The notes under the pieces: model-generated
Seen by the model: only the letters and a program-made list of their open reading frames with translations
Told to the model about the DNA's origin: nothing
Databases searched by the model: none
Shown: positions 1,012 through 45,524 of the stretch, piece after piece
Position numbering within the stretch: the first letter of the stretch is position 1
Layout of the letters: each line of letters opens with the position of its first letter
Translations under genes and position numbers: made by a program
Source of the DNA: Discostella pseudostelligera
Taxonomy: Eukaryota; Bacillariophyta; Thalassiosirophyceae; Thalassiosirales; Thalassiosiraceae
Direction of reading: 5' to 3'
Assembly (NCBI GenBank): GCA_036940085.1
Contig: JALLBK010000013.1
Span: 1-64,000, forward strand
DNA length: 64,000 bases

Positions 1012-2384
1012 CTAGTTGTGCAAGTGGTGTTTTGTTCCAGTCAAACATACCTGATAACTCGGTGTGTGGAGCATATTGAGTGTGAGTTCAACCTGTGGTA
1101 GGAATTCATCCCACAGTTGGATGAGGCATGTTGGATCAAGTGTTGCAAGGCTTGCAATGAAATGGTCCTTGAATGTGGCAATGGCGCGTTCTGCAGCATT
1201 GGCGCGGTGATTGTGTGGTGGGACGAGTTGGATTCTGATGTTGTTGCTGCATATAAATGCAGCAACAGTAGAAGAGCATTCGTTGTCCATCACGTTGAGG
1301 TTGATGGGTTGTGTCGTAGTGTGTCGATGATGCTCTTGAAGGCGGTGGTCATTGCCGCGTCGTTTTTCGTCGGCATTGGTCGGGCAAGAATGGCATTGAT
1401 ATCGTAGATGTACGCAACAAATATGTACACATTGTTTCGGAAGGACCGTACGGGGAAGGTTCCGGTCAAGTCAGTATACATTGTACCGGGATTCTCTCCG
1501 GCGAGGACAGCGTAGCAGTAGATGTTGTATGCGGCGCATATTTCTTGTTCTGGTTGAAGTTCATCCACCAATTTTTGTGCTGCAACGATCTCTTCATGAT
1601 TGTTGTGCGTTGATGCGTCATGTTGGCATACGCGGTGGAGGTGACCTTTGTCGGTTGCAGGCGTGTGACCAAGGTGTTTTGTAATGAGTGTCGTTGTGAG
1701 CCCAGGGATAGTTTGCAATTCGACATTGTGTGTGATGGCGTGCAGGAGTGTTGCCACAGGTGGGGAACCAAGGGATTGATGGATGAACTTGGCATATTTG
1801 CTCGGTGAGGATGTATCACGTACATGCATGATATTTGCAATGTGTTGTGGGGTGGGCGTTGGTGTGGGTTTCATGATGGGCAGCATAGGTTGTGATCCGC
1901 TGTTGTCATATAATGGTATCATCCACAGTCCGGTTTTGGTACATTTTCTGCCACACAGTATTGTTCATCCTTTGTATTTAATTGTGCATCCAATTTTGTT
2001 CAATGTTACTTCACAGCCGGCATTGCAGAGGTTGATGACAGAGATAAGTGAGTGGGACAAAAGGTTGGGTAGTATGTGTGCTAGCCTTGCCTGATCTGAT
2101 AGTGCTTCGATTTGCATTCTGCATGTGTGTGTAGTGCAGATGCGGTCACCATTCGGAAGCTGGGCCCAGATGGGTGAATTTGTGGGTTGCATGTCGGTGA
2201 ATGGGGCAGTAGTAGTGAGAAAGTGGCTACTGGCACCGGAGTCGACAATTGCCCACTCATGTGAGGTGTCATCGGTGAGCATGACTGTTTTAAGTAATGG
2301 TGTTTGGATGGGGGTTGAACTTTGTGTAGAGTCTGTAACAGATGCATTATTGATTAATTGTTCATTTCTACACAAAACGTTCAC
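1012..2384 (-). pseudogene. copia protease-integrase region, broken reading frame
   Basis: From 2384 to 1968 the frame encodes an aspartic protease with the DSGASSHF active site. After an in-frame TGA (1965-1967) the same frame continues through a pre-integrase segment (HLGHTPATDKGHLHR) and the first part of the integrase core (YTDLTG) to 1290. A one-base shift close to 1300 is needed to continue into VMDNEC, the NNIRIQLVPPHNHRANAAERAI block and LWDE...TLNML, which run to 1012. The DDE residues of the integrase are all visible across the break. The original protein can be recognised but not made from this copy. Confidence 0.78.
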
Positions 2385-2393
2385 CCCTAACCA

Positions 2394-3680
2394 TCAATAT
2401 TGGTACCCATGGTAGTACTGCTGGTGCATGGGAGGGGTAGGCATTGCCGGAGCTGGCATCATGGGCACAGGATGCTGATATGCAGGCGTGGTGGGTGGGA
2501 TCATCGCCATGGCATGGTGGTATTGTTGTGGCATGGTTGGAGGCATGGTTACCGGAGGTGTCGCCATCGGAGGTGGCATGTTGTATGCAGGTGTCGGCAT
2601 CGGAGATGTCATGTTGTTGTATGCAGCTGCAGGTTGCATAATATTGTTGTATGGATTCGTGGGGGGAGTAGGGTGCATTTGTTGTTGCGTGGGGTATGTG
2701 GGTGCACGGTTGTATGGTGTGTAGTTGCGGCCGCCACCGGGGGCTGCAGGGGGGCAACCCACTGCACTGGGCATGATTGTTTTATGGAGACCACTGATGC
2801 TGCCACCCATAGTGTTGTCACGTGTTGCATAGTAATTGTGGTAATGGCCGGGTTTGGAGCATGTGGCGCTGGTGTGGCCATCATTGACGTTGTCGCCATG
2901 GGTGTGGCAGTAATTCATGTTTTTGAAGCACTTGACTGGGTTGGGAGGTGTAACTTGGGTGGCCGGCGGTCCAGTTGGCACATATTGTCTGTGTTGATTT
3001 CCCCCGCAGCCGCTGCGTGGGTTGTTGTTATTGTAGTAATTGTTGCGCTGGTTATAAGGTGGAGGATACATGGGTGGGCGAGCCATGATTGAGTGGTTGA
3101 GTTGCTGTTGTAGGGTGGTGATCCAGCCCTGCAGGTTGTTTATCGTGTCCGTTTGGTTGCGGACACATTCTTCGGTGGCAGCGTAGGCGGAGCCAAAGTT
3201 GGAGATGGAATTTTCTAAGGCGGACGTGCGGGATGTGGTGGAGTTGTCATTGCTGACTTCGTTGATGTTCATTCCATACTGATATTGTGCCGCTGGGGTG
3301 GCCATGGCTGTGTCGGCGATGTGTATGGCTTGTTCCCAAAAAAAATTGAAGGCGGCGTAGTCGTTGCCTTCTGCCAAAGTTCTCTTCTTCCATGCCTTCA
3401 TCTCCTCTGGGTAGAGGCCACAGTTTTGAAGTATGATGATAGCAGCGTCAAGGATTTGGTGTTCTTGGAGGGGATGGTTGGCGCAGATGGTGTATGTGTT
3501 GGCAAGAAAAAGTCGATGGGTAAGGCTGTCAAAACCGTCGCTAGGTGACCAAGGTGCGATGTAGATGAGAATTTGTACAAAATCAGTGAGTGTTGGAGTA
3601 CCGATGACACAGAGATGATCAGGTGGAGCGGGGAAGCCCACTTTCATGTCGGTGATGGAAGTGGGTGTGGCGGCTGACAT
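2394..3680 (-). CDS. copia gag-like protein with zinc-knuckle-like motif
   Basis: Structural gag protein of the retrotransposon, 428 residues from an ATG at 3680. Residues about 1-200 are a helical capsid-like part. Residues about 205-240 are Asn/Tyr/Gly-rich. Around residue 250 there is a Cys/His cluster (CFKNMNYCHTHG...H.SATCSKPGH) that resembles the nucleic-acid-binding knuckle of diatom copia gags, although its spacing is not the classical CX2CX4HX4C. The C-terminus is Pro/Met/Tyr-rich low complexity. The ORF ends in TGA and the protease follows in the same frame, so in an intact parent gag and pol could have been one reading frame or separated by a suppressible stop. Confidence 0.8.
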   Translation of the reverse strand: MSAATPTSITDMKVGFPAPPDHLCVIGTPTLTDFVQILIYIAPWSPSDGFDSLTHRLFLANTYTICANHPLQEHQILDAAIIILQNCGLYPEEMKAWKKRTLAEGNDYAAFNFFWEQAIHIADTAMATPAAQYQYGMNINEVSNDNSTTSRTSALENSISNFGSAYAATEECVRNQTDTINNLQGWITTLQQQLNHSIMARPPMYPPPYNQRNNYYNNNNPRSGCGGNQHRQYVPTGPPATQVTPPNPVKCFKNMNYCHTHGDNVNDGHTSATCSKPGHYHNYYATRDNTMGGSISGLHKTIMPSAVGCPPAAPGGGRNYTPYNRAPTYPTQQQMHPTPPTNPYNNIMQPAAAYNNMTSPMPTPAYNMPPPMATPPVTMPPTMPQQYHHAMAMIPPTTPAYQHPVPMMPAPAMPTPPMHQQYYHGYQY

Positions 3681-3949
3681 GGTGGTTTGGGGTTTGTTTT
3701 TAAACTATTCTGCTAGCTCTGTCAAAGACTACTGAACAAAGATTATGCAAATGAATGAGCTAGAGAATTTATGAGTCTACAAACTAATTCTCGAGCTTGA
3801 GAATGGCACACGAGCGCTGGATGACTTGTGGGTATCATTGTAGGGTTTGTGTGCTTGCAATATCAGTTCAGGAGTCAACATCCGTTCATGTGGGTGAACG
3901 GACTTGAGAACGGACTCGCGAAGTGGCTGCTCTCAGGTGAACGGAATGG

Positions 3950-4024: not shown

Positions 4025-4235
4025 CCATCTCTTCCTTGCTCTCCTCCCTCATTAACTATGATACTATCACTCATGAAATGACAATTGGCGATGGCGCTCT
4101 CGGTTTCTCTCTCTCTCTCAGCACATCCCATCTCTTCCTCGCTCTCCTCCCTCATTAACTATGATACTATCTCTCATGAAATGACGATTGGCAATGATGC
4201 TCTCAGTTTCTCTCTCTCTCTCTCTCTGTGTGTTC
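4025..4235. repeat. Two-copy tandem duplication, period 103 bp
   Basis: The block beginning CCATCTCTTCCT at 4025 recurs from 4128 with about 95% identity. Each copy contains CTCCCTCATTAACTATGATA and ends in a (CT)n run. Short open frames seen here only reflect the duplication. Confidence 0.85.
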
Positions 4236-4319
4236 CTCTCCTCCCTCCCTCTCTCCCGACAACAATTTGATTGTTGCAACACAGAGGCAATGTCAATAAA
4301 ATGAATTTTATTTGCATGA

Positions 4320-4422
4320 TGATGAAGATTACGATGACGACAACGATGATACAACAATGACTTGTTGCATGATGATCATGATGATGACGATGACAATACG
4401 ATGAAGATGAGTTCATTGTTGC

Positions 4423-4453
<31 letters not shown>

Positions 4454-4620
4454 CAACAGCAATGTCAACGCAATTGTTGTATGATGAAGATGATGATAAA
4501 AATATGACGAGGATGACGATGACAATATGATTGTTGCATGTCATGATGCATGACGATGGCGACACCGATGTGATTGTTGATGATGATAATGACAATGACG
4601 ATGATGGACGACAACGAGTT
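4320..4620. repeat. GAT/ATG trinucleotide-rich tract with a pure (GAT)10 run
   Basis: About 300 bp dominated by GATGA/TGACGA triplets, with an uninterrupted ATG/GAT run at about 4423-4453. Open frames on either strand here encode only low-complexity Asp/His/Ile/Met runs and are not genes. Confidence 0.85.
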
Positions 4621-5702
4621 GAATGTTGCATCGGTAACAAGGCTATTGCATTGGCAGAACAGGGTCGCAGGGATTGGGGTGGTGCTGCCAGTTGAAGGGG
4701 GCGGGTGGGGGATGTCAGTGTATCTGCATGATCTTAATAATATCATGTAATTGGACATAGTGGAATTCATGTGCCAGTTGTGCTTGTTGTGCTGTATGTG
4801 TAGGGCTCTTCTTCTCCGCCTGCTGTGCACAGTGATGAGGACATTTTTTGGAGAGGGAAGCCCACAATCTCTGCTTAATGTATCCTACTTACATTGTATG
4901 ATATCAGAGTACAACAAAGGAATCGGTAATGAAAAGCAATGAGTTGGAAAGAATGGTGCACTAGCTTCCTTCAGAGGAATCAATAGATACTATCTAGTGA
5001 TCCAACAGATTATTTAAAAGGAAGAAACCGGTTTGAATTTAAATTTGTTGGTTGGAGGTAAGTAGGAGTACATAGGAGTTCAGCAAGCATCAACAACAAC
5101 TCAACCAAAAACCACAACTCAACCATTCAACCAACCACAACACAACTAACCACAACACCAACACCAACACTCTTCTTGACCATGATGATTGCCACTGCGC
5201 CTGCCACAATGCCTCCTACCCTCCATCAAGCAGCTAGTAGGTACTAGTCGTCCACCAACATGAGGATCATTGCTCTGTAATCCCATGTTGGTGTATCTCC
5301 AACATGGGCGCTGATGGTCATGGCTGCCATCAGAATCAAGATCCTCCACTGTGACATCACCATCATATGCTGCTGTGACCATAATTGCAGTATTGTCATC
5401 ACTGCCCCCATGGTCACCACTGTCGCCAGTTGCTCTCTCCTCACCAAAATTATTTATGAGTAGTTAATATCATCACTGATCACAAAGAGGAAGATGTGCC
5501 AGAGGGGGGAGGATGGCTGATGGGTTAGAGGACAAGGTAAGTGACAGTCAACATAATTTTTCAATTCTGACATAGGCCAGTGGTCCACCTCTGGTTCCAG
5601 GTGTAACTTGTTGTATCCGATGGATACCATCGGATAGATCTTAAAACAAACCATGCCCTAAAACCAAATGCACTTTTAGTGACACCAAAGATATGGTTTT
5701 TT

Positions 5703-5880
5703 TGAGATCTTTATGCTGAAACCCAGATCTTTGCACAAAGATCTCATACATCTGAACATAGGATTCAGTGAGATCTTTTTGCACAAGAAAGCTGCATCCT
5801 GACATAAAGACTTCTTTATGTCAGCTTCACCCCTGTTTGCTAGCTTCACCTAGCTTTGCCTAGCAAAGCCTAAGATCACT
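5703..5880. repeat. Cluster of short palindromes and AGATCTTT repeats
   Basis: AGATCTTTG/CAAAGATCT forms a near-perfect 20-bp palindrome at 5725-5744. GACATAAAG/CTTTATGTC makes a 4-nt-loop hairpin at 5801-5822. GCTTTGC/GCAAAGC flanks CTA near 5850-5870. GAGATCTT also recurs near 5704 and 5770. No terminal inverted repeat or transposase is linked to them. Confidence 0.65.
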
Positions 5881-8284
5881 TTTAAGCATAAACTAAGCTC
5901 ATAATTTTCATCTGAAGACAATCTGCACATCTAAGTTGTTTTGTGACTTTCACCTTCAGGGCAGCCTTCCAGCTCAAGTCAAATTCTCCCAAAAATTAAT
6001 ATTAAAGTATTGTTCTCATATTCATATCTGCCATGCCCATTGCCCATCTCAACTTTCATATCATTTCCTTGATCATCACGAATAATATTCTCTCTCCTAT
6101 CTCTCTAGCAAAGTAGCAAGTATTCAAATACCATACAGGTGAGCCGATTGACAACATCATTAAATCTTTATTTTTCATGTTGATTTGTGGAAGAAGGCGG
6201 GGTAGACGTAGGAGGATGGAGGGAGGGAGCGAGGAAGCCTGGACTGAAGGAGACGACAGAACACCACCACTGATGATGAAGTTGAAGGGCACTGATTGTG
6301 ATGGTGAACATGATTGCACCAAGATTTAAGATTTATGCCAACATCAACAGTGTGGGGACGAGGAGGAGGAGGAGAAGAAAAGGGAACGTGCTGTGGTAAT
6401 AAAAGAGGGGTGAGACTGGCGAGGCAACATCGAAGTAGAATGTAGAATCATAATATTAGCAAGTGACAATGACTACATGATGTTGATGTTTCATTCTAGA
6501 TGTGTTAAAGTTAATTGGAATGAGAATGACAATGTTCCAACCAGAACCCATTAATGATTAAATTAATGGTTCTAACAGATCATCACCAGTTTGATCTGTA
6601 GTAAACGTAATATGGTACTACTTGCACCAATTCAATGTATACATCTAAAGCAATTAACTACAATTCGAACCAATTGACTATATCATATAAAACCATCCAT
6701 TTGTACGTATGGCCTTGTGAAGATCACATTCCAGTGAACTATAATCAGAAACAATTAATTGTTTTCAGTTCCAATATTAGCTTGTGTGAGGTTGAGTNAT
6801 GGACTCAGTAGCCAGAGGGTTGTTGTTGTAGTTTGCTGTTGTTCTTGCTGTGTTGTTCTTCTCCTTACACCTACTCCTCATTCTTGCTCTGATTCCGATT
6901 GTGCTCCTGATGGGCTGAGCCAATTGTTCATGATGATTCATGGAGGCTGCCAGCACCTCTGGCTGCCAGGTCAGCCACTCCTAGTAACCCACAGCATACA
7001 CACCTCTTATGAACCCAATGACCACAGCCACACTTAGTAAACACAGTGTATGGTAGGAGTATCTAACAGCCGCAATGAAAGCCATTGTCAGAATTGTCAT
7101 CTTACTAGATGGTAGAGTCTTTGTGTTTTTTAGTAGCTAGTACAACTCATGATAGCTCATCTGGCAAACCATTGGCCTCTGACATACTATGATCCCCCTT
7201 GTGTCTGTACCTTATTGTAGTTCTTGAATCGCAATCTCTAGTAGAGTTTAGAGTCATTATTATACTTAGACTGTGTGGTACTCCTATGCCAACAGAGCAG
7301 GTAGTATCTACGAACTTAGTACTCCACCCCCCAACCTGTCAACACTCCTCAAGCTTCAACACGCACTTCATTGCAGATCAACTACTGGCATCACATATCT
7401 TGAGTATGGTACTGTTGCACAACATTATGACTCACTATGACCTGGTATCATGACTTGCAAATCCTGAGTCCGGCACTGGTGGTACTGGTACCTGGGCTGT
7501 GGTAAAAAGATTTCTTGCTGTGTTACTATGTGTTTGGGTCATTGACATTGACATTGGCAATGATCTCTCCTTTACGTTCCACCACTTGACATGAGCCAAT
7601 TGGATCCTTTGTAACAATGGTTACAAAGGTGGAGCATCTGGCCTTTGTCAGGTGTAAGATGTGTACCTTGAGGCATGATATCCTGAAGGGATAGTAGAAG
7701 CATCCTTCTGGAAGATATCATTGTCAGCATCTCACATCATCATCACCACATACTTCCTGATGAATCCCCACTTCTGCTGGAAGATTCAAAGATCCATTTT
7801 TCCTACATACCTGCAGGTACTATGTTGGAATTGGGAGGATCACCACATACTCACAAGATCTTTCTGGTTGAGGAGCTTTGAAGCCCAAAGCTCTGGCGCT
7901 TGACCACATTCAGGCAGGGTGATGTGGCAGTGCTCCTTCTGTCTTGTATCAGCACAGGCATGTAGAATTCTACAGACCTACTTACTCTGCTCTAGTAGTT
8001 GCTAGCAGAGCCTCCTCACTTTTCATTCTTCTAAAGCTTGCTCTTCCTTGTGCCCTCATCATCAGTACTACCGCATGCCTGGGTCACCACTGTCTTTGCC
8101 TTCACTAGGCCCTTTGCCTTCTTCACCTTTGCCACCTTACTTCACCTTTGCTGTTGTGAATACTATGATATCTACTAGTCTAGTATCTAGTAGGAGGTAG
8201 GAGACTCCGGGAATATCATACTAATTTGATGAGTAACCTTCTTGAATCAATCAATGTGAAATGGTTTCAAATGGTCAGTGGTCA

Positions 8285-8340
<56 letters not shown>

Positions 8341-15476: not shown

Positions 15477-17246
15477 ATGCAAAGGAGCGACGACATTATG
15501 AGCAGTAGCAGCAGCAGTCGCAGTCGGATTCCCTCCCGTCTCCTCGTGATAGCGGGAACTTACGACGGTGTCCTCGCGGGTTGGGACACTGCCGCCGCCA
15601 GCAGCGTCGGCGCTGACGACAACAACAATACGGCAGACGTTGACAATAACAAATTTGACGATCAGAAACTAGAGCTGCAATTACTACGCAGGAAAGGATG
15701 TGATGGAAAGTATTTGAAGCTCATTTTCGCCATGGCGGCACACGAGGGTAGCGTTCGCTGTCTTGACATTGCTTCTGCCGGTGCTGCGGGTGCTGGTGTT
15801 GAACCATCTCCCAAAACTTTGTTATCTGGTGGATACGATGAGACCATAAACGTGTACAATCTCATCAAACGAAGTCAGGAGGGTGAATTAAAGACGCCGA
15901 ATGATTTGGGTTCACCACTCTGCTGTTCGTTTGCACCGCCATCTTCTTCTTCCAATAACAACAACGTCGCATCCACAATCACTACTGTATCAACACATGC
16001 CATGGTGGGCACAACCTCTGGGAAACTTATCCTCTACAAGAATAATAAAGATTGGTCCATTGAACATGTACTCTCTGGTCATCATCCCACCGAGGTGTCC
16101 TGTCTTGCCGTACACCCTACTGGAAAATTGGCATTATCGGGTGGAAAGTCCGATGGCAAACTTATATTGTGGGATTTGATGAAAGGTCGAATGGCATATG
16201 TGCACAAGGTAGTCTTGTCTTCAAGCGCCAAGAGACGGAAGGAGAATGTTACCATCAATCATATAGTGTGGAGTGGCGATGGCACACGATATGCATACTG
16301 TCATGGTACTAAAATTACCGTCAAGGATGCCAATAGCGGTGAAGATTTATTGGATGTCGATATGCCAGGACGAGTGAATCAATTGGCATTCATAGGTGGA
16401 CCGGAGGGCATGTTTGTGGCCGCGGCGTGCGATGATGGTGGGTTGCCCGTGTTGGAAGTCGGAAATGTTGATGGTGACGACGGCGAGGATGCTTACGATG
16501 ATGAAGCCGGTAACAACACACGACGTGCCATTATGGCCATTGAACCGGTGGAAAAAGTTGTGGCGGGTGATGATCGATTTAAGTGCATACGCAGTGTCGA
16601 GGGTGGGAGCGGTTTTTTGGTAGTTACTGCCAATAGCGGTGGTGTGGTTAGCTTGATGGACTTGGAAGATGCAGTACGGATGATGTTGACGACACCTTCA
16701 GAAGCTGGTGGTGGAGAACTAAACGGGGGCGACTCAGATAGCAGTATTGATGACGATGATGATGCTTCTATTGATGATGACGATGACGAAGCGGTCGAGG
16801 CGGCCGTGGATATATTAGATAGTGTTCGGATCGGATCTGGTGCAAGGATAACTGACTTGACTGTTTGGAGCTACGGAGGTGTTAATATTGAAGATAATGA
16901 TGTCGACGAGGATGCTGATGATGGTACTGTTAGTGATGATAGCAAAGATGACGAATCGATACCTACTTCGAAGGTGACAACGAGGACTACATCCGAAGAT
17001 GACAAACTACCTGCCACGAAGAAGAGGAAAGGTGAGAACGATCAAAAAGCAACGAGGACTACATCCGAAGATGACAAACTACCTGCCACGAAGAAGAGGA
17101 AAGGTGAGAACGATCAAAAAGCTTTTACTGGAGGTGCTCGGAATAAGGATGAAATTGGATTGGACGATGCGGCAGTGAAAAAGGCACGAAAGCTCGTGGG
17201 TCAAGCAAAGAAGCACCAAAAGAGGAAACAGAAAAAGAAAGTTTGA
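15477..17246 (+). CDS. WD40-repeat protein, MAK11/PAK1IP1-like ribosome-biogenesis factor
   Basis: Single exon, 589 residues; ATGs at 15477 and 15498 are both possible. WD-type repeats run from about residue 20 to 310, with family-like phrases LLVIAGTYDGVLAGWD, AAHEGSVRCLDIA, LLSGGYDETINVYNL, SCLAVHPTGKLALSGGKSDG.LILWDL and HIVWSGDGTRYAYC. Order and wording match MAK11/PAK1IP1, a nucleolar protein needed for 60S subunit maturation. Acidic Asp-rich runs around residues 420-440 and 470-490 and a Lys-rich end (KKHQKRKQKKK) fit a nucleolar location. A 72-bp segment is perfectly duplicated in the tail. Its stop is 60 bp from that of GatB, which converges on it. Confidence 0.82.
   Translation: MQRSDDIMSSSSSSRSRIPSRLLVIAGTYDGVLAGWDTAAASSVGADDNNNTADVDNNKFDDQKLELQLLRRKGCDGKYLKLIFAMAAHEGSVRCLDIASAGAAGAGVEPSPKTLLSGGYDETINVYNLIKRSQEGELKTPNDLGSPLCCSFAPPSSSSNNNNVASTITTVSTHAMVGTTSGKLILYKNNKDWSIEHVLSGHHPTEVSCLAVHPTGKLALSGGKSDGKLILWDLMKGRMAYVHKVVLSSSAKRRKENVTINHIVWSGDGTRYAYCHGTKITVKDANSGEDLLDVDMPGRVNQLAFIGGPEGMFVAAACDDGGLPVLEVGNVDGDDGEDAYDDEAGNNTRRAIMAIEPVEKVVAGDDRFKCIRSVEGGSGFLVVTANSGGVVSLMDLEDAVRMMLTTPSEAGGGELNGGDSDSSIDDDDDASIDDDDDEAVEAAVDILDSVRIGSGARITDLTVWSYGGVNIEDNDVDEDADDGTVSDDSKDDESIPTSKVTTRTTSEDDKLPATKKRKGENDQKATRTTSEDDKLPATKKRKGENDQKAFTGGARNKDEIGLDDAAVKKARKLVGQAKKHQKRKQKKKV
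16978..17121 (+). repeat. Perfect 72-bp tandem duplication inside the WD40 gene
   Basis: Copies at 16978-17049 and 17050-17121 are identical at every base. They encode two copies of a 24-residue unit (TRTTSEDDKLPATKKRKG...), each with a KKRK basic cluster. The frame is kept. Confidence 0.95.
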
Positions 17247-35177: not shown

Positions 35178-38100
35178 ATGCTGTGTAAAAGTAGAATGAG
35201 CTCTGATCGTGGTCACGGACATCGCTCCTCCCACTCCCAACGCAGCTTGCACCAACGTCGTCCCACTACCATTCATTCTGATGCAACCTCTTTTCCAACG
35301 ATATCAACAGCAACATCAATGACAACAGCAGCAACCACATCACGACGACAACGAGGAAGAGTACATGCCCCACTCCCATCTCTTCTGCATCAGCTGGTAG
35401 TAGCACTGCCATTCTCATTATTACTCCTACCGGTATTGCTCTCTAGTGTTCTTCATAGAATTGTCGTCGAGGGAGCCGAATCGGGACAATTGTTGGGAGG
35501 ACTTTACACCCCCACCACGGATGTTTCGCACATGTAAGTGTTCCGTTGTTTAGGTCTCAAGGGTCATGGGACACCAACTTGATCATATGTTGTCTGTTGT
35601 CTTATGTCAACTTCTACCCGTTATCCTCTCCTCTCTCTCACTTCTCACTGAATTGTTATCCTCGTATTTCTCCATCCTTTGCCTACTTTTGTGTCCCTCC
35701 CCAACCTCTGACATTTATGTGTGTGCATCTCCGATATTATTAGTGTGGCATTGTCTGAACTAGTCCGTGCCATCTCCGTCGAGAATGACATCAACAACGG
35801 TACTTCCCTCTACCAAATGACAGCACTTGGGAAAATCTCCCTCGAAAGCATTGTCTACCCCGGCGACGATGCTGCATCACTCGAATTCCAAAACAATGAT
35901 TTTGGTACTGGTTTTCTCAACCCCACAACCAATGTACTGTACGATTTGTACATGCATGCCCTATGGAATAGTGACCATGGAAATAATCAAGATTCCTCCG
36001 ATGGTGAACCATTGGCACGACCATACTACCAATTCCTTGACGAGAAGGTAGATTATTATGGTCACTCCATCATCAATGCCGAATTTTCAAAAGCGTCCGG
36101 ATATGACCCCAGCTTAACCGCCGAAACCATACGTGTCATATGTTTGTGGAATGCCGCCATCCAAAGTCTCTACGATGCTGTGGAATTGTGTGCCGACGCT
36201 TCTGTGGGGGATGTCATCGATGGTAGTAGCAATGAAACAACTCCCGTCCTGGTGGAAGTAGATATCAATGATGCATCGTACATTAGTCCAGTGGATAAGG
36301 CTGCGGCATTTTGGTCTGGGGATCATATCCCCCGGGGGGATGAGAATGGCGATGGTATCCCAGAATTGGATGAGACCGATGATTTCACACTGTATTCGTG
36401 GGCTGCGCGTATTCGAACGTACTTTGCCAATCCTATCCCGGGCGAAGTGTTATTTGATGCCAATAATGAAATTCTGGCAGGTCTTCAGAATATGCAAACA
36501 TTGTTGGGATCGTGCATATCGTCCCCCTCGCCGGATATGGCGTTGAGCATGAGAATGGCCGCGGAGGATGTCTCGCGTTACATGACTGTGCCCTTGGTTC
36601 AGAGCTTGATTCATTTTGCTGCCGGAGTGGTGGTGAATGGAACGCCGACGACGGAGACGGGATCAACAGTTGCAGCAGGAACTACGACGATGGCTGCTCC
36701 TGCTACGGAGGATCCATCAAATGATAAGATTGATTGGGCCATTGTGAGTTACTTTATTACTTTTGCATCAATCGTCACGTTTGCCCCTTTTCACTGACTT
36801 CGCGTCATCTCCCAACCAACCAACTATAGCTGTATGGACTCGTAACGATCCCCCCTATTCGTGTATGCCAAGATTATAACTTTGATACTCTCTACAGCGA
36901 GCTGGTCGTTAACGCAAAGGCTGATGGCAATCTGAGTGAACAGACTTTTTACGACATGCTGCATACCCTCCATTCACGACTATTATGCCTCCGATTGTCC
37001 TGTGACATGGTGGGTACGTCAAACATCCTCTCGTCGGACAATGGTATGGATGCGGACGGGGGTGTCTGGCCGACATGCACTGACCCCACCGCCGACTTTG
37101 ACGGGTATGCTATCTCGGAAAATGTCGACCGTGACACATTCCTGGAGTATGCCAAGGTGGATTTGGATGTGCGGACCATCGTCGCCCTCGTGGAGATGGA
37201 TGCCGGAGATGCTGCCTATGATGTCTATCGCTGGGGGCGAAACATGCGGGTAGAAAGTACCAGGAATGCTGCCCTCATGGACTTGGAGTCGGAGCCAAAT
37301 CACTCTAACAACGATGTCGGTACAACATACGTATCGTTCTTTGATCAACAGTCAATGACCATTGGTGAGCACATACGCGAATCGATCATGGGAGGAGGGC
37401 TTCTTGGGCTCTATGTGGACGCAACGCCGGGGCAGCGCAAGATAATTACCGAATGGACCTTCCTCGCTATCTCGCTACAAATACACGCCCTGAACGCCAT
37501 GTACGAGGCTATTGATAGCTGCAATGCAGGGGCGCAAGAGACGACGTGGGACCGTGGCGTAGCGGCGCTGTCGGGGTGGGCCGAAGAAACAGCAGACACC
37601 GATGGGTTGTTGCTCATGGAGGTCGAACGTTTCTTTTGTCGAGCCAACGATTCATGCGATACGTACACAAGCGATTCTACGATTAATGGGCTGATGTGGG
37701 ACGCCATGACAACTGGAAAGAATGGCCTTGCCAACCTAAGTGGAGATATGAGTGGGTGCAGTATTGCCGAAACTTCGGTGGCGTCTATAAAAAAGTTGGT
37801 CCTTACAATTTTAGTAGATGCCGCTGCAACCTTTGCGGATTTGATTGCACAGGATACGACGAATGCGATTAATTTGGCGCATGGCTGTGAGTTTATCTAC
37901 ATCGCATTATGTAACTTTTATTCACCACACCCAGCCAACGCATTATGGTCTCATGCTAATTTGTTATTCAATCGTGCGCAGACGGTATCGCACTAGCATT
38001 GGCACCGCTGATGCAAACACTTGATACTAAAGCCTTCGGAATCATTAATACCAATATGGGCGTATTTGGATCGACTGCTCAACCCATGGTGGATGGAAAG

Positions 38101-41100
38101 AACGAGGTGATGGATGCGCTGATGAATTTCGTGACCGTCGCTGAAATCGATTGTTCTTTGTTGACTAGTGGACTATGTGGCGGAGGAGGAGATGGAGATG
38201 TGACTGCAGGATTGACGTTGAGTCCTAGCCTTACTCCGCCGAGTCCATCTTCTACACTACAAAGCAAGTGCGCATATGCATTCGACGGAGGCCTCCCTAG
38301 TAAAGAGGGAGATATTTCGCAGCCGCTGCTGAGTAACGCATATACTCCTACATCGAACGTCGATCACATGTAAGCTTGTATATTGCGTTTGGCTCTTTGC
38401 TTGTTTCCTTCTGCAACAAATCTCATTCTGGCGCATCAATCCTTCCAGTGTCAAGCTTACAGAACTCGTCGATCAAATTTCTAACTCAGAGACCAATTCT
38501 GATGGGCTTTTGTACTATACACAAATTAACGATGGAGTTTCTCTGCAATGCCTTATGATGGGTAATCAGTTGGCTCCCATCATTAATCCTCTGTTCGTGA
38601 TCAACACGTACGGATTATGGATCAGCTCAGCTGGTGACGGTGACCCCGATGGATACAGTAGTAAATCATTTGATGATGTATCATTTGATGATAAATCATT
38701 TGATGATATGAATGTTGTCAACTATGGAGATGCGGTTGTCACAGACTCATTTAACAAGGAGACGGGTTATATTCCTGAACTTACCGCTGAAACCATTCGT
38801 GTCTTGAATATGTTGATGGCGATGGTGACAGAGATGTACAGGGCGGGGCAAAGCTGTTTGAATGGAAGTTTGATGGATACTAATCCGGTCGATTTTGCCG
38901 CTGCGCTCTGGTTTGGAACTGCGCAAGATCCATCTTCATCCGACGGAGGTACTTTGTACGCATGGGCTCAAAGGGCTGGGACAAACTTCTCGGGGCAAAC
39001 TCTTTTGATACCTGATGCAATTGCAACCGACCTAAGTGAACTTCAACAAAGTTATGCAGATTGTGTTGCTCTTGTGGAAGAAGAGAAAGCTACGAAGGGA
39101 GTTGAGATGAGACACAAGGTTGATGATATCACACGGAAGTTGTTTGTACCCTTGGTGCAAAATTTCATCCACCATCTTGCTTCGGAGGTATGTGTTTACC
39201 GCGCCAGCGGTTGATTGCCTTGGTGTGATGCTGTGAATGAGTTGACTAATGCTTGATTTTTGGCATTTTCTTTTTGCACAATGATACAGTCAGGATTGAC
39301 AGATGTGGAGCCGACAGAGGAGAGATATTTCGTAGTTTTGTATTCGCTCGCACTACTCCCGATGATTTCTATATGCGACAAGGTTGGGTTTGATGATTTA
39401 TTCACCTCATTGATCGAAGATATTGGAAACTACGACGCTCGTAATTTTTCGATATTTATTGCGCAACTTCAGGCCCGGTACGAATGTCTTGGGATATCTT
39501 GTGAAATGATCGGCTTGCATTCAAGTGCTAGTGCTGAATGGCCAGAATGCAAAGCTACCTCCTTTGCAATCACCGGTTACTTGCCGGCCTCTGATTCATC
39601 ACGCGAGGTGAGTTTATACTCTGCATATTTATCTGTTTTAACGCAATTCGCAAGTTCCTGCGCTCAAATACTCGGATCACTTCATAGATGTGGCAAATTG
39701 ACCTTGACGTGAGCACTATTTTGACATCCATTGTCATGGAGGTACGTGACCCCAGTCTCTTTTGGGTGATGTGCGATTTGTTTGTACGAAGTCTCATCTA
39801 TCCGTCTTTCATTCCTAGGCAAATGATATTGCATTGGATATCTTCGAAAATGGCCGCAATGCAATGAGCAACGACGGCACAGGATCATACCTATCACTCA
39901 ATGATATCAGTACTCCAACTACCAACAACGCGGAGGTAAACGAGATCTACCAGAGCTTCACGTCGGGTTCGAATGGAGTTGACTACACTGTTATAACAAA
40001 GAATGCAATAATGGGCGAAGAGGCTTTCGCGTTTGCTTCAGTGTTGAAACGAAGCTCTGCTGCAAGGCTTGCTATCGCCACTATTCAGATGCACATAGTC
40101 ATTCTCAACAACATGTATGAAGCAGTGAGTTTGTGTCAAACCGCTATGTCTTCTGGAACAGTTGATGACGGAGTGGGTGTGTACTGGGATAGTGCTGTGG
40201 CAGCTGCAGTCGGCTCGACTGAGGGTAATGAGGAGGGCGGCTCCACCACCAATGGGTATCTCTTTTATCAACTTGCACAGGAGCTCTGTGGATATTTTGA
40301 CAGCTGTGATAGTGACGGCCAGTCCGTTTTGATTAATAGTCTCATGGCTGAGTTTGCGGCCGGTCAGTCGGCACTACAGAGCAGTCAATGTGACGTGGCG
40401 CTAAATTCACGATCGACAATCGAAAGACTGCTTCAGTCTATTTTGATCGACAACTTGGCATACCATGTGAAAGCAGCTTCTGATGGCGATGAACAGCATT
40501 GCTTAATGGCTCATGTTGCAGCGAATGCCCTCGTGCCACTAGTTCGCCGCGACATTGAAGCCGACGCTTCCGCGAATACAATTGAAGAGAGCGTTATGGC
40601 TACATTCAGTGAATGTAATGTGAATGATATCGAAGCCGTCTATCAAGCTCTCGATTTTTATGTGGAGTCTCAGAGCATCAATTGCACCTTGTTAAGCAGC
40701 CCCGTTTGCGATGGGACTAGTACTACTGATGATTATGTTGGATATGAAAACCCTGATGAATTTACGTCGAACACCGATGGCAACACACTTTTCAATAACG
40801 AATATCAACCAATGATGGACGTTACGAATATTGAGGGTCTGTCGTCGATATTGAGTGCTATCTGCAGTTCTAATAGTACAGATGCAGCCAGAGAAGCATA
40901 TTCGAACGATGCAACTGCTGGAATTACGATTGAATCGATGAGTTTGCTTGCCAAGTACGCCATGGCTGACGAACTTCAACTCAATCAGTACATTTATGCC
41001 CTCCAAGACGGTGTGGATATAACCGACGGGTCTCTGCTGTTCGATAACAAACCGGCCAGTGAATATGCGAACACCATCACGAGTGATGCGCTTGATATAA

Positions 41101-44100
41101 GCCCAGCCCTCGGTTGTCGATCTATGAAGGTGCATAATATATGGATGTGGATCGTACACAAGTGTAAGTCAAATTACTTTGTGATTATCGAACTCTCTCT
41201 TTCCCTTTTTTAACGTTGGATTCTTGTGCCATGCATGCAGTAAATTCAATGATATTTACTTGCAAGTCTGCTGACAGTACTCAAATGGGGCTCATTGACG
41301 AGGTAAGAGTGTTGCTCGAATTCATCAAATTTGATAGATACATATGGGTAGTGGTTGATGACTCAATTCCATTGAACGAAAACTCCGCAGGCAGCAGCAT
41401 TGTGGGATGGAGGTCTACTGTATGACATGGCGGAAGAGCTCGGGCCAAAATTTGGACACAGCCAGGACGGGGGGATGACTTACTTGAATCGCAAGATAGT
41501 AGACCGTTTGGTGAAAGCGCGTGATATAATTTCCAACACAACTAACACTTGCAGCGCAGCAGATGTTCATGACTTGCGGATCATTGTGAGAGAAACCATA
41601 TCATATATGACGGCCGTATTGATCCAAAGTCTTGTTGATTCGATGATAATTGGTGAGAGAAGTCTCGAATGAATTTTTCATCAATTTTGTGTTCCTTATT
41701 AATTCGTCGTTTTCCTTCAGAGTATGATACCGTCGAGGAAGAACAGCAAGCAGTCGAACTGATGGCCTTCGCGACACTTCCACGCATCAAAACTTGTGGG
41801 CACGAAGCAGCGTATGAGACTCTTCAAGCAGACTTGATAATAAACAAATACAATACCGACATGCTTGCCAATATAACGGCCAGCCTTCAGAGTCGCTACA
41901 ACTGTCTCGGCTTGACATGTGACGATGTCGGACGCCACACTCAGGACAACATGTCCCCTGAATGCGCTGTAAATCTTAATATTGCAGGATATTCCCCAGT
42001 GGATGCCCAAAAAACCAACATGGTACGTTTTTTCTGTGCGTCCGTATGAATCAATGCAGATTGTCGTCAACTTAGCATCTAATCACGTTGCGGTTGCAGC
42101 TTGCCAGGGTTGACCTCGACGCTGTGGCGATCCATCAAATGATGAGCATTGAAAAGTACGACATTGCAAAGCGAATTTACCTTGAAGGACACAACTATTA
42201 TGATTATGACAGCGCGGACAGATATAATTTTGTCAGTCTCTTCAATTTTACTCAAAACCAAACAATCGACTATTCCGACTTTCCAATGTACCAGTTATAC
42301 TCTGAATATTACGGAACCAACGATTTCATCCATGAGATGATAATGCAGATCTTGGAGCAAACAGGTTCGTTTGCTGACATGCCAGCGACCCAGCGTGACT
42401 TGGCACTTGACGTCGCCATTTCGAACATGTTGTCATACATGGCTGCTTTGGAGGCACTCTACGATTCGGCTAACATGTGTGATGCCGTAGACGGAGGGGC
42501 AGTTGCATTAAATGCGTTTGACGGCGCCGTCGGTTTACTGGTAGGCTCTGTTGAAGGCCCAGAGAAGGGGGGGAGTCAAAATCAGGAGGGACAAATGTTT
42601 TACAGTATCGCTGGGAAAAGTTGTGTTTACAATGATTGTGTGGGGAATGAAATCAACGAACAACTATTTCAAGCCTTGACCGATGGCCAGAGCTTCATTT
42701 TGGAAAGAGACTGCGAATCTGCGACGAAATCAGTGGAAAACATCAATGCACTTCTGAAGGTGCCGTTGGTGCAGTCTCTCATTTACTTTTCCGACGAAAC
42801 TACATACGAAGTTGCGGATAATGTTGCAGCTGGGTATGTCGCTACAATGGCTGTGATTCCCATCATCTATGAAACCGATCCTTCCTCTGCGACAGCAATT
42901 GAAACAGCGATGAAATTGGATGATCCATCATGGACGCTTGCAAGTAAAGAATTGGAGGTGCGCAGTGCACTGCAAGTCTTCCTTTCCAGCCAGGCATCGG
43001 GCATCAATTGCGCTCTCGTAACAACATCTGGGAAACTTTGTGGGACTGTTGAAACAGCATATGATCCAGATGAGCCAATGCCAATATCCGATGGATTATA
43101 TGTCTCGACAAATTATGTCGGCGACAGATCTGCAATTGCACTTGATGTGAAAGAAATTCAATCCTTCTTGAGTCAGAACAACGCTGATGAGGCCAACCGA
43201 GTTTACACCTATGGTGAGTTCATGAGGAATTTGTTTTTTCTTTTGCAATTCATTTACGCTCAGCTTTGTTGCTGCTGAAATTGCCACCCTATCGTAGGTC
43301 TCAATTCAGAAATCCATAGCGGAAACGGATCACCTACGGGGAAATTGCGTTCCGTTGCTCGTTTCAGTACGGATTCGAACAGCACGATGAAGAGTGATCC
43401 GACTTACAACATCTTTATTCACGGGCTCTCTGATGAAAACCATGAGTTCATGGGAAGACCAGCGACCTTATATGCAGATTCTTTTGTTTCGAACCTGTTG
43501 AATGCAAACATGCGGGAAGCATCAAACGCCATGGTTGCGATCACAATTTGGATGCAGGTAGCTCATAGTCTGCACGCTTCTTACCGGGCTTGTCAGCAGT
43601 CGTCTTTATCTGTGGATAGAAACCTACAAAATAGCCAAGATCCTTCGTTATTTATTGATGAGGCAGCCGCCTATTGGATTGGCGACAACCAAGACACGGG
43701 GAGTTCATCTGACGGCCACCTATTGTACGCCCTCACTGAGTTTGTAGGAGATAAGTTCGAGGATATTCCCTCGGGATCTGAATCGGAGATCAACATGCAA
43801 ATCATTGACCTGTTCAACAAGGCAAAAAATCACCTCGCAATTTCCAGAGGTTGCATGGCCGGTGAAGATTCTCATTTGACGCTCATGAGTTTTATTGACG
43901 AGCTCATTCCATTGATGATTATCCCCCTGTTGCGTTGCCTGCTGTATTATTTGCGTGAGAATGATCTAGTGCTGGTGAGGGTGTACGCAATTGCCGCGCT
44001 TCCTCTTTTCTCGACATGCTCTCCTGCAACCTACAATGAATTGAAGGATCAATTGATCAACCACGAAGCCATCGGAGTGAACAAAGGATACATTTATTCG

Positions 44101-45524
44101 AAGATTCAGAGCTTGTACAGTTGTTTGGGTAAGTGTTTCGTCCGTCGCCTATTATGATGCTTTGAGATAAGAAATCCTCTCAACATACATTCACACAGGA
44201 TTGACTTGTGACTCTGTCGGCTTTATGAAAACTGATGGCTCTATTGGCTGCGAGGACGATTCGGACCTGAAGAGCTTGGCTGGTTATAGATACGAGGCAG
44301 AACCGGAGGTAGTCAGCGAATCTTCGCGTATTGACGTCGAAATGAAAAAGGTTGAAATTTTCTTAGATAATGGTGTGAATCACTTCTCAGATAGCCAAGA
44401 AGACGTGTTCAAGAGTGCATTCGAAGTGTACAAAGCATCACTTAGAAGTATCGCGAGAGACACTAAGAGAGAAGTTGTGCCTGCATTCTCTGCCTTCCGT
44501 CGCTACTTCGCCTTTGATGATTATTACGCTGACACCATGATTGTACGTGCCCAGATTGATTGTGCCATTTTTTCCGCGTCGGACACTTAAATTTTTGGCA
44601 TTTTATCCTTGCAGGCAAATGCTTTCCTGAAGGGAGGTGTATTCAAAGGGGCGACGGCTGATCAACGGAAGAGGGTCATTGTATTTGCCATGAGATATAT
44701 GGTTACATTTATGGCGGTCCTTGAAAAAATGTACAGTGCACTTAGTTCATGCAGGCAAGGTAGCGGTGACGATGATGGAGCAATGAATCTTGACGTCGCG
44801 GTAGCATACTACGTTGGGTCGTTGGAGGGCGGAGATGGTGGCGGCAGCTACGACGGGAGCCTAATTTACATGTTGGCGAAGCGGATGTGCGTTCATTTTC
44901 AAACATGCACTTCGTCCAACGATGCCATGATAAACGAGCGCATTGTCAGCCTGTTCTACACAGGACAAGGTGAAGCGGAAACTGGCGTGAGTATCTACTA
45001 TCAATTTGGCCGAATATTCTTACTTTGCGCTAACCTTCAGTGTTGTTGCCCCTCAGTCTTGTGACTCTCTCGAAAGAACTGTGCATGAAATCGAAAATTC
45101 TCTAATTGTGCCGTTGATTCAGGGGACGCTCTTCAGTGCCAGAGAAAATGAGTTACACTTCAAAAAGCGTGCTTTTCGAGAATTCTATCCTGAGGGTTAC
45201 GTGGTAGCACAATCTATTCTTCCTATCTTGAATGAAGCGGACACTTATGCTGCGAATGAAATAAAGAATGTTATGGTTACCAAGTTCCCTAGCCAAGGCA
45301 ATGATGATTCATCAAATGATTCAACGAAGGTTCACAGCGCCATGAAGATCGCAGTTTCTAAAATGGAGGGGGTCGATTGTACGCAGATTGGGACGATTGG
45401 CGGCGCTGGTCTTTGCCCAGGTGATGATGGCACATACAGTGCACTCAACTCGGCCTCCGTCTCAACTGTCTCGATAACGTCGCTGACCATTACTTGCGTG
45501 ATATTGTGTTTAGCATTCATTTAG
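35178..45524 (+). CDS. Giant cell-surface protein with eight phytotransferrin (ISIP2A/FEA1)-like lobes
   Basis: Sixteen exons: 35178-35533, 35744-36743, 36830-37886, 37982-38369, 38449-39187, 39290-39607, 39688-39741, 39819-41163, 41241-41302, 41391-41652, 41721-42022, 42100-43213, 43298-44128, 44199-44542, 44615-44986, 45057-45524. The sum is 9,012 nt with every junction in frame: 3,003 residues. A hydrophobic segment at about residues 70-95 ([20 protein letters not shown]) is a signal or anchor; the last 22 residues are hydrophobic (TVSITSLTITCVILCLAFI), a membrane or GPI-type tail. Between them are four B-A lobe pairs. A lobes show the family phrases VDLDV..I.....A.DIA.DIF..G.N, A.V.YVGSLEG..GGS..G.L.Y.LA...C..F..C, VPLIQ and a late IxCxL..S..CG. 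The known family binds Fe(III) with carbonate at the algal surface; this many repeats is unusual. The iron role is inference from motif similarity; adhesion or wall function is possible. Confidence 0.82.
35500..38200 (+). repeat. Module 1 (lobes B1 and A1)
   Basis: B1 runs from YTPTTDVSH to CLRLSCDMVG. Its core is LTAETIRVICLWNAAIQSLY...AAAFWSG, with an Asp-rich insert (DENGDGIPELDETDD) before LYSWAARI. A1 starts at AKVDLDVRTIVALVEMDAGD and holds NAMYEAIDSC, GLLLMEVERFFCRANDSC and IDCSLLTSGLCG. Confidence 0.75.
38330..40720 (+). repeat. Module 2 (lobes B2 and A2)
   Basis: B2 starts at YTPTSNVDH and has DFAAALWFGTAQDPSSSDGG, TLYAWAQRAG, LFVPLVQNFIHHLASE and YECLGISCEMIG. A2 begins in an 18-codon exon (MWQIDLDVSTILTSIVME) and has SAVAAAVGSTEGNEEGGS, LFYQLAQELCGYFDSC and INCTLLSSPVCDG. 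Confidence 0.78.
38663..38707 (+). repeat. Three 15-bp tandem units in lobe B2
   Basis: AAATCATTTGATGAT-type unit three times in frame, encoding SFDD(V/K/M) repeats; an acidic surface insert. Confidence 0.85.
40790..43050 (+). repeat. Module 3 (lobes B3 and A3)
   Basis: B3 begins at YQPMMDVTNIEGLSSIL and is the most divergent B lobe: its AAALW is followed directly by DGGLLYDMAE, lacking the 10-12 residue loop of the other B lobes. It ends YNCLGLTCDDVG. A3 starts LARVDLDAVAIHQMM and has VGLLVGSVEGPEKGGS, MFYSIAGKSCVYNDC, VPLVQSLIYF and INCALVTTSGKLCG. Confidence 0.75.
43110..45430 (+). repeat. Module 4 (lobes B4 and A4)
   Basis: B4 has AAAYWIGDNQDTGSSSDGH, LLYALTEFVGDKF and YSCLGLTCDSVG. A4 has AVAYYVGSLEGGDGGGS, LIYMLAKRMCVHFQTC, VPLIQGTLFSA, YVVAQSILPILNEAD and VDCTQIGTIGGAGLCPG. 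It is the closest of the eight to the ISIP2A/FEA1 pattern as I remember it. Confidence 0.8.

Follow-up and report, generated by a model that had tools for sequence, protein, structure and literature searches.

A giant gene of the diatom Discostella pseudostelligera with eight lobes of the ISIP2A/Fea1 superfamily

Does a single diatom gene encode a chain of eight phytotransferrin-like lobes, and would such lobes bind iron? The question is raised by a locus of Discostella pseudostelligera in the first 64,000 nucleotides of contig JALLBK010000013.1 (assembly GCA_036940085.1, forward strand), a stretch referred to below as the window. Judged by comparison with relatives in other diatoms, the locus is one real, conserved gene, and profile comparison indicates that all eight lobes of its product, arranged as four modules of a B lobe followed by an A lobe, are homologous to the ISIP2A/Fea1 superfamily. 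The reading that we favour, at somewhat better than an even chance, is a multivalent anchored iron binder of the kind named ISIP2x8 in another diatom, for which we infer surface location, iron binding and hand-over of the metal.

Gene model and giant relatives

The gene consists of 16 exons on the forward strand (35178–45524) that join in one frame into 9,012 coding nucleotides and 3,003 residues, with the ATG at 35178, the stop codon at 45522–45524, no internal stop and 15 GT..AG introns of 68–210 bp. The exons were rebuilt by script with splice-site motifs chosen by eye, and this re-derived model agreed with a first-pass annotation that had proposed sixteen in-frame exons, the same protein length, an N-terminal hydrophobic signal and a C-terminal hydrophobic tail, the latter two lying at residues 66–97 and 2981–3003. 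A third hydrophobic stretch of 19 residues (2526–2544) only just exceeded the threshold used. The predicted protein is acidic (pI, the isoelectric point, 4.3) with a mass of 327 kDa. Its first hydrophobic stretch begins 65 residues after the ATG, and the homologue from Stephanocyclus has about 23 residues ahead of the corresponding stretch. The start codon may be the ATG at 35178 or the in-frame Met48, with which the signal peptide would look more typical, so that 3,003 residues is an upper bound. The four modules occupy residues 105–919, 920–1627, 1628–2289 and 2290–3003, giving the lobe order B-A-B-A-B-A-B-A. Thus the four B-A pairs of the first-pass annotation stood, and their supposed uniform size of about 720 residues did not, the modules being 815, 708, 662 and 714 residues long.

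A search with residues 105–3003, covering proteins of similar length only, returned 13 proteins of 1,871–4,189 residues. Three of them, two of which are recorded as 'hypothetical protein', are collinear giants with 42–47% identity in the best local alignment. ACHAWF_018259 of Thalassiosira exigua (P0045; 3,664 residues, 47% identical) aligns over 100% of the query and differs by one additional N-terminal module, which brings it to ten lobes; the best alignments of CCRYP_005898-RB (P0052; 2,547 residues), whose prefix presumably stands for Cyclotella cryptica, and of ACHAWX_007338 from Stephanocyclus meneghinianus (P0053; 2,399 residues) span 87% and 30% of the query, respectively. In relatives long enough to reach it, every one of the eight lobes was best matched by the lobe at the corresponding position. 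Other multi-lobe proteins are built differently: P0055 and P0056 contain three B-A pairs each, and the eleven lobes of P0054 (4,189 residues, without a start methionine) run A-B-B-B-B-B-B-B-A-B-A; in its row of seven B lobes, the first six switch in the tree between two subtypes.

These relatives bear directly on the possibility that several separate genes, or a misassembly, had been joined into an artificial giant. The spliced protein was continuous across its junctions when aligned with up to seven giant relatives (7 of the 13 were used); junction J10 falls in a variable loop, and J1 was covered by the T. exigua protein only. The relatives themselves hold several modules per protein, and in two of them, P0048 and P0050, the protein fills nearly the whole of the longest contig (6,213 of 6,289 and 6,909 of 6,940 bases), so that the modules there lie in one unbroken frame. 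The name of CCRYP_005898-RB also holds a MAKER quality string that gives 17 exons, and its values of 1 read as full transcript support. We therefore give an artefact of this sort next to no credence; the giant relatives, including those of T. exigua and S. meneghinianus found by the orthologue search in other diatoms, together with the continuity of the junctions, bore out the single gene initially proposed.

Homology, types and fold of the lobes

Pfam Fea1 (PF07692) matched module 4 (residues 2294–3003; E-value 6.2e-9) with 35.8 bits, above its curated cut-off of 25, and modules 1–3 gave no Fea1 match in Pfam at a limit of E 10, where the HMMER filters drop most weak matches. Among the giant relatives, P0046 scored above the same cut-off (34.1) and P0045 below it (16.7), and P0044 gave no Pfam Fea1 match; an exon-by-exon family search of the D. 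pseudostelligera genome likewise did not list this giant gene. A hidden Markov model of canonical ISIP2A run on the single protein sequence scored seven of the eight lobes above 5 bits and missed B1, and the exon of lobe A3 directly matched both ISIP2A genes of the genome (E 8.0e-10 and 1.5e-9). When profiles of orthologous lobes, each made of 5 to 11 sequences, were compared with a 49-sequence profile of canonical ISIP2A, all eight matched at 97.95–100% probability. The eight reversed lobe profiles reached 0.04–0.42%, and the reversed group profiles 0.51% (A) and 0.05% (B). The phytotransferrin-like character first assigned to the lobes, for which a profile search of each lobe had been suggested, was in this way confirmed as homology for all eight, with no reversed control above 0.51%.

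The lobes fall into two old types. In pairwise comparison the best partner of each B lobe was a B lobe and that of each A lobe an A lobe, the lowest E-values being 1.7e-39 for B1–B2 and 1.3e-24 for A1–A2. A quick tree of 74 lobes separated 36 B lobes (support 100) from a group of 32 A lobes and 6 canonical ISIP2A sequences (100), in which the canonical sequences formed one clade (100) next to the A lobes (97). In both lobe types the first two modules clustered together (99); B4 grouped with the B lobes of other multi-lobe proteins (99), and A4 leaned the same way without firm support. Given the deep split and the place of ISIP2A beside the A lobes, the B-A pair seems to be an ancient unit that became multiplied, and canonical ISIP2A is the equivalent of a single A-type lobe.

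Fold predictions were made for homologues only. AlphaFold2 models were mostly helical both for a canonical ISIP2A protein (P0057, whose exons are 96–99% identical to those of one D. pseudostelligera ISIP2A gene; mean predicted local distance difference test score, pLDDT, 86.5) and for P0003, a homologue of module 4 with two lobes (pLDDT 85.1, predicted template modelling score 0.85). As listed rather than superposed, the helices of the canonical model and of both P0003 lobes begin with one of 33–34 residues and continue in a series similar in order and length; canonical helices 370–384 and 386–401 have a single long helix as their counterpart in either P0003 lobe, and a beta-rich stretch of the canonical model (about 88–190) largely has no counterpart in the window lobes. 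Foldseek returned no match of the canonical model in the PDB at E 0.001, PDB sequence searches with module 4 and the canonical profile returned none, and the bilobal profile gave one weak match, apolipoprotein A-II (E 0.11). These fold and sequence searches neither show nor exclude kinship with the transferrins of animals or Dunaliella.

Against known systems, the architecture and its functional idea are not new, because giant and multi-domain members have been reported before. ISIP2x8 (p84), an eight-fold ISIP2-like protein of Thalassiosira oceanica, was reported in 2012 with the same functional idea (PMC3491386), and in 2016 Lelandais described algal proteins whose Fea1 domains occur in even numbers between 2 and 10 (PMC4855317). 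These reports contradict the earlier statements that described members are short and that no member of such size had been described. Like the window protein, ISIP2x8 combines eight ISIP2-like subdomains within a single thalassiosiroid protein; orthology of the two would follow from lobe count and diatom kinship rather than from sequence. The even-numbered multiplication of Fea1 is shared with Ot-Fea1 of Ostreococcus tauri and the other 2-to-10-domain proteins, and Ot-Fea1 is also described with a signal peptide and a C-terminal hydrophobic segment (PMC4855317); it differs in having two domains and in belonging to a green alga, and it is likened here by description, not by sequence. The phytotransferrin ISIP2A of Phaeodactylum tricornutum and of two D. 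pseudostelligera genes has a homologous lobe (98–100% profile probability), but is a single A-type lobe with a beta-rich stretch, and its conserved aspartate, glutamate, tyrosine and histidine (D/E/Y/H) as well as arginine and lysine (R/K) positions are mostly replaced in the window lobes.

Canonical ISIP2A genes number at least two in the D. pseudostelligera genome, which also holds a bilobal gene. The two canonical genes lie about 35 kb apart on contig C278 (at ~5240–7134 of locus L007 and ~4108–5827 of locus L008, both on the reverse strand); one of them ends hydrophobic and tail-less, and in the other a polar C-terminal tail comes after the hydrophobic stretch. The bilobal Fea1-type gene on contig C898 (L009, 1855–4263, reverse strand) encodes very divergent lobes, a B and an A, in two open reading frames (ORFs).

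Probable surface anchoring, regulation and candidate binding residues

The multivalent surface iron binder favoured here would act as follows. Anchored at the cell surface, the giant protein would display eight Fea1/ISIP2 lobes and so raise the density of metal-binding lobes there; the lobes would capture or hold Fe(III), which would pass to the single-lobe ISIP2A proteins of the cell itself and to further parts of the uptake system. A surface role had been proposed at the outset, and by hydropathy the protein looks anchored: it ends within its hydrophobic segment, with no cytosolic tail. Six of the eight C-terminally complete giant relatives likewise end hydrophobic; the tails of P0052 and P0053 are weaker and have a final arginine. 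Such an end leaves no room for an endocytosis motif like that reported in the cytosolic tail of P. tricornutum ISIP2. A cytosolic tail is not universal, since the canonical protein P0057 also lacks one. The giant may be a glycosylphosphatidylinositol-anchored or a tail-less membrane protein.

Several observations weigh against iron binding by its lobes, first among them the fate of the conserved canonical positions, whose role as iron ligands we infer from their conservation. We compared 58 positions conserved at ≥95% within residues 190–490 of canonical ISIP2A across the eight lobes. The lobes kept 26 of 109 aligned D/E/Y/H residues (24%), 1 of 22 R/K residues and 133 of 276 others (48%); the difference between residue classes gave a Fisher p of 1.1e-5, to be read with the caution that the entries are not independent. 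Eight of the 26 retained D/E/Y/H residues come from one position, D300, kept in all lobes; Y228 is kept in five, D282 and E301 in two each, E279, Y395 and E412 in one each and Y275 in none. At seven positions picked after viewing the alignment (Y275, E279, E281, D282, R330, Y395 and E412) each lobe keeps none or one, against 3–5 per lobe at five other positions. The alignments behind these counts have 17–24% identity, at which the helix register may slip. Canonical positions also vary in other multi-lobe proteins. The number of iron sites is therefore placed between zero and eight, and with D/E/Y/H retention so low neither a count of 'eight iron sites' nor Fe(III) binding with carbonate by every lobe is proven. 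Any iron binding by the lobes would probably dispense with the full canonical residue set.

The palindrome ACACGTGC, a motif of iron-regulated diatom promoters (PMC3491386), is absent within 700 bp upstream of the gene, also when one mismatch is allowed. This absence says little, as the motif is missing from ISIP2A loci too: no exact copy occurs in the 13 loci examined, which include the ISIP2A genes of this genome, one of which has a one-mismatch copy at −434 (chance expectation about 0.5). In a 2023 study of T. oceanica, ISIP2 and ISIP2x8 transcripts showed no well-defined response to iron resupply (PMC9873189).

Taken together with the hydrophobic, tail-less end, the poor retention of charged and tyrosine positions, the absent promoter motif and this one transcript study also fit a surface, wall or adhesion protein on a Fea1 scaffold that has lost iron binding and uses its lobes as spacers or stalk units. 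We nevertheless regard this as an unlikely outcome, if one to be taken seriously, because lobe-specific residues are conserved between orthologues, ISIP2x8 is placed by Lommer (2012) under iron-regulated cell-surface proteins (PMC3491386), and Ot-Fea1, the Ostreococcus protein with two domains, turned up among proteins loaded with iron (PMC4855317). One such residue is at position 281, canonically glutamate, where six lobes have tyrosine, B4 histidine and B3 asparagine, mostly conserved among orthologues; this suggests a retained site and makes the tyrosine of the six lobes a candidate ligand.

The same changed pattern, with Tyr281 in six of eight lobes and His281 in B4, would also be compatible with lobes that bind zinc, manganese, cobalt or an iron complex at a site unlike that of canonical ISIP2A, and the levels of Ot-Fea1 are reported to depend on zinc supply (PMC4855317). 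The relatives assayed in the papers cited here bind iron, however, and no direct evidence speaks for another ligand, so that we consider this alternative rather improbable. More speculatively, the lobes may have exchanged the canonical residue set for one that contains tyrosine, giving, in place of eight ordinary phytotransferrins, a tail-less surface scaffold with a second, so far undescribed binding chemistry, for iron or another ligand, that loads single-lobe ISIP2A; we entertain this elaboration as a doubtful one. The surface iron binder remains the reading that we prefer.

Feature coordinates and significance

The lobes and exon 1 are placed in Table 1; lobe borders were set by eye at a repeated motif, and their genomic coordinates were carried by hand from residue boundaries through the exon list.

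Table 1. Exon 1 and the eight lobes of the giant gene, in window positions.
Feature	Residues	Exons	Position	Strand	Canonical ISIP2A profile probability
Exon 1: N-terminal part with hydrophobic signal or anchor (residues 66–97) and beginning of lobe B1		1	35178..35533	+	
Lobe B1	105–541	1–3	35490..37096	+	97.95%
Lobe A1	542–919	3–4	37097..38325	+	99.12%
Lobe B2	920–1272	4–6	38326..39565	+	98.21%
Lobe A2	1273–1627	6–8	39566..40787	+	99.86%
Lobe B3	1628–1947	8–11	40788..41980	+	99.33%
Lobe A3	1948–2289	11–12	41981..43083	+	99.95%
Lobe B4	2290–2635	12–14	43084..44275	+	99.85%
Lobe A4, with C-terminal hydrophobic tail (2981–3003)	2636–3003	14–16	44276..45524	+	100%

Within lobe B2, a 15-bp repeat of about three copies (window 38662–38708) encodes SFDD units. 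Elsewhere, the window contains a perfect 72-bp tandem duplication (16978–17122) inside an ORF at 15477–17246, a perfect TAC repeat of 18.7 copies (8285–8340) and, on the reverse strand (2394–3704), a 436-residue ORF rich in proline, methionine and tyrosine with a Cys-His stretch, possibly, as judged by eye, a remnant of a retroelement gag gene.

An eight-fold giant of this kind has carried a name since 2012. To this, the present analysis adds collinear giants in several thalassiosiroids, the old split between B and A lobes, and the poor retention of charged and tyrosine ISIP2A positions. Iron is limiting for diatoms in large parts of the ocean, and among their Fe(III) uptake proteins phytotransferrin is well studied; in this setting the most useful addition is the doubt that the giant raises about iron binding by its lobes, both whether they bind the metal and how many of them would do so.

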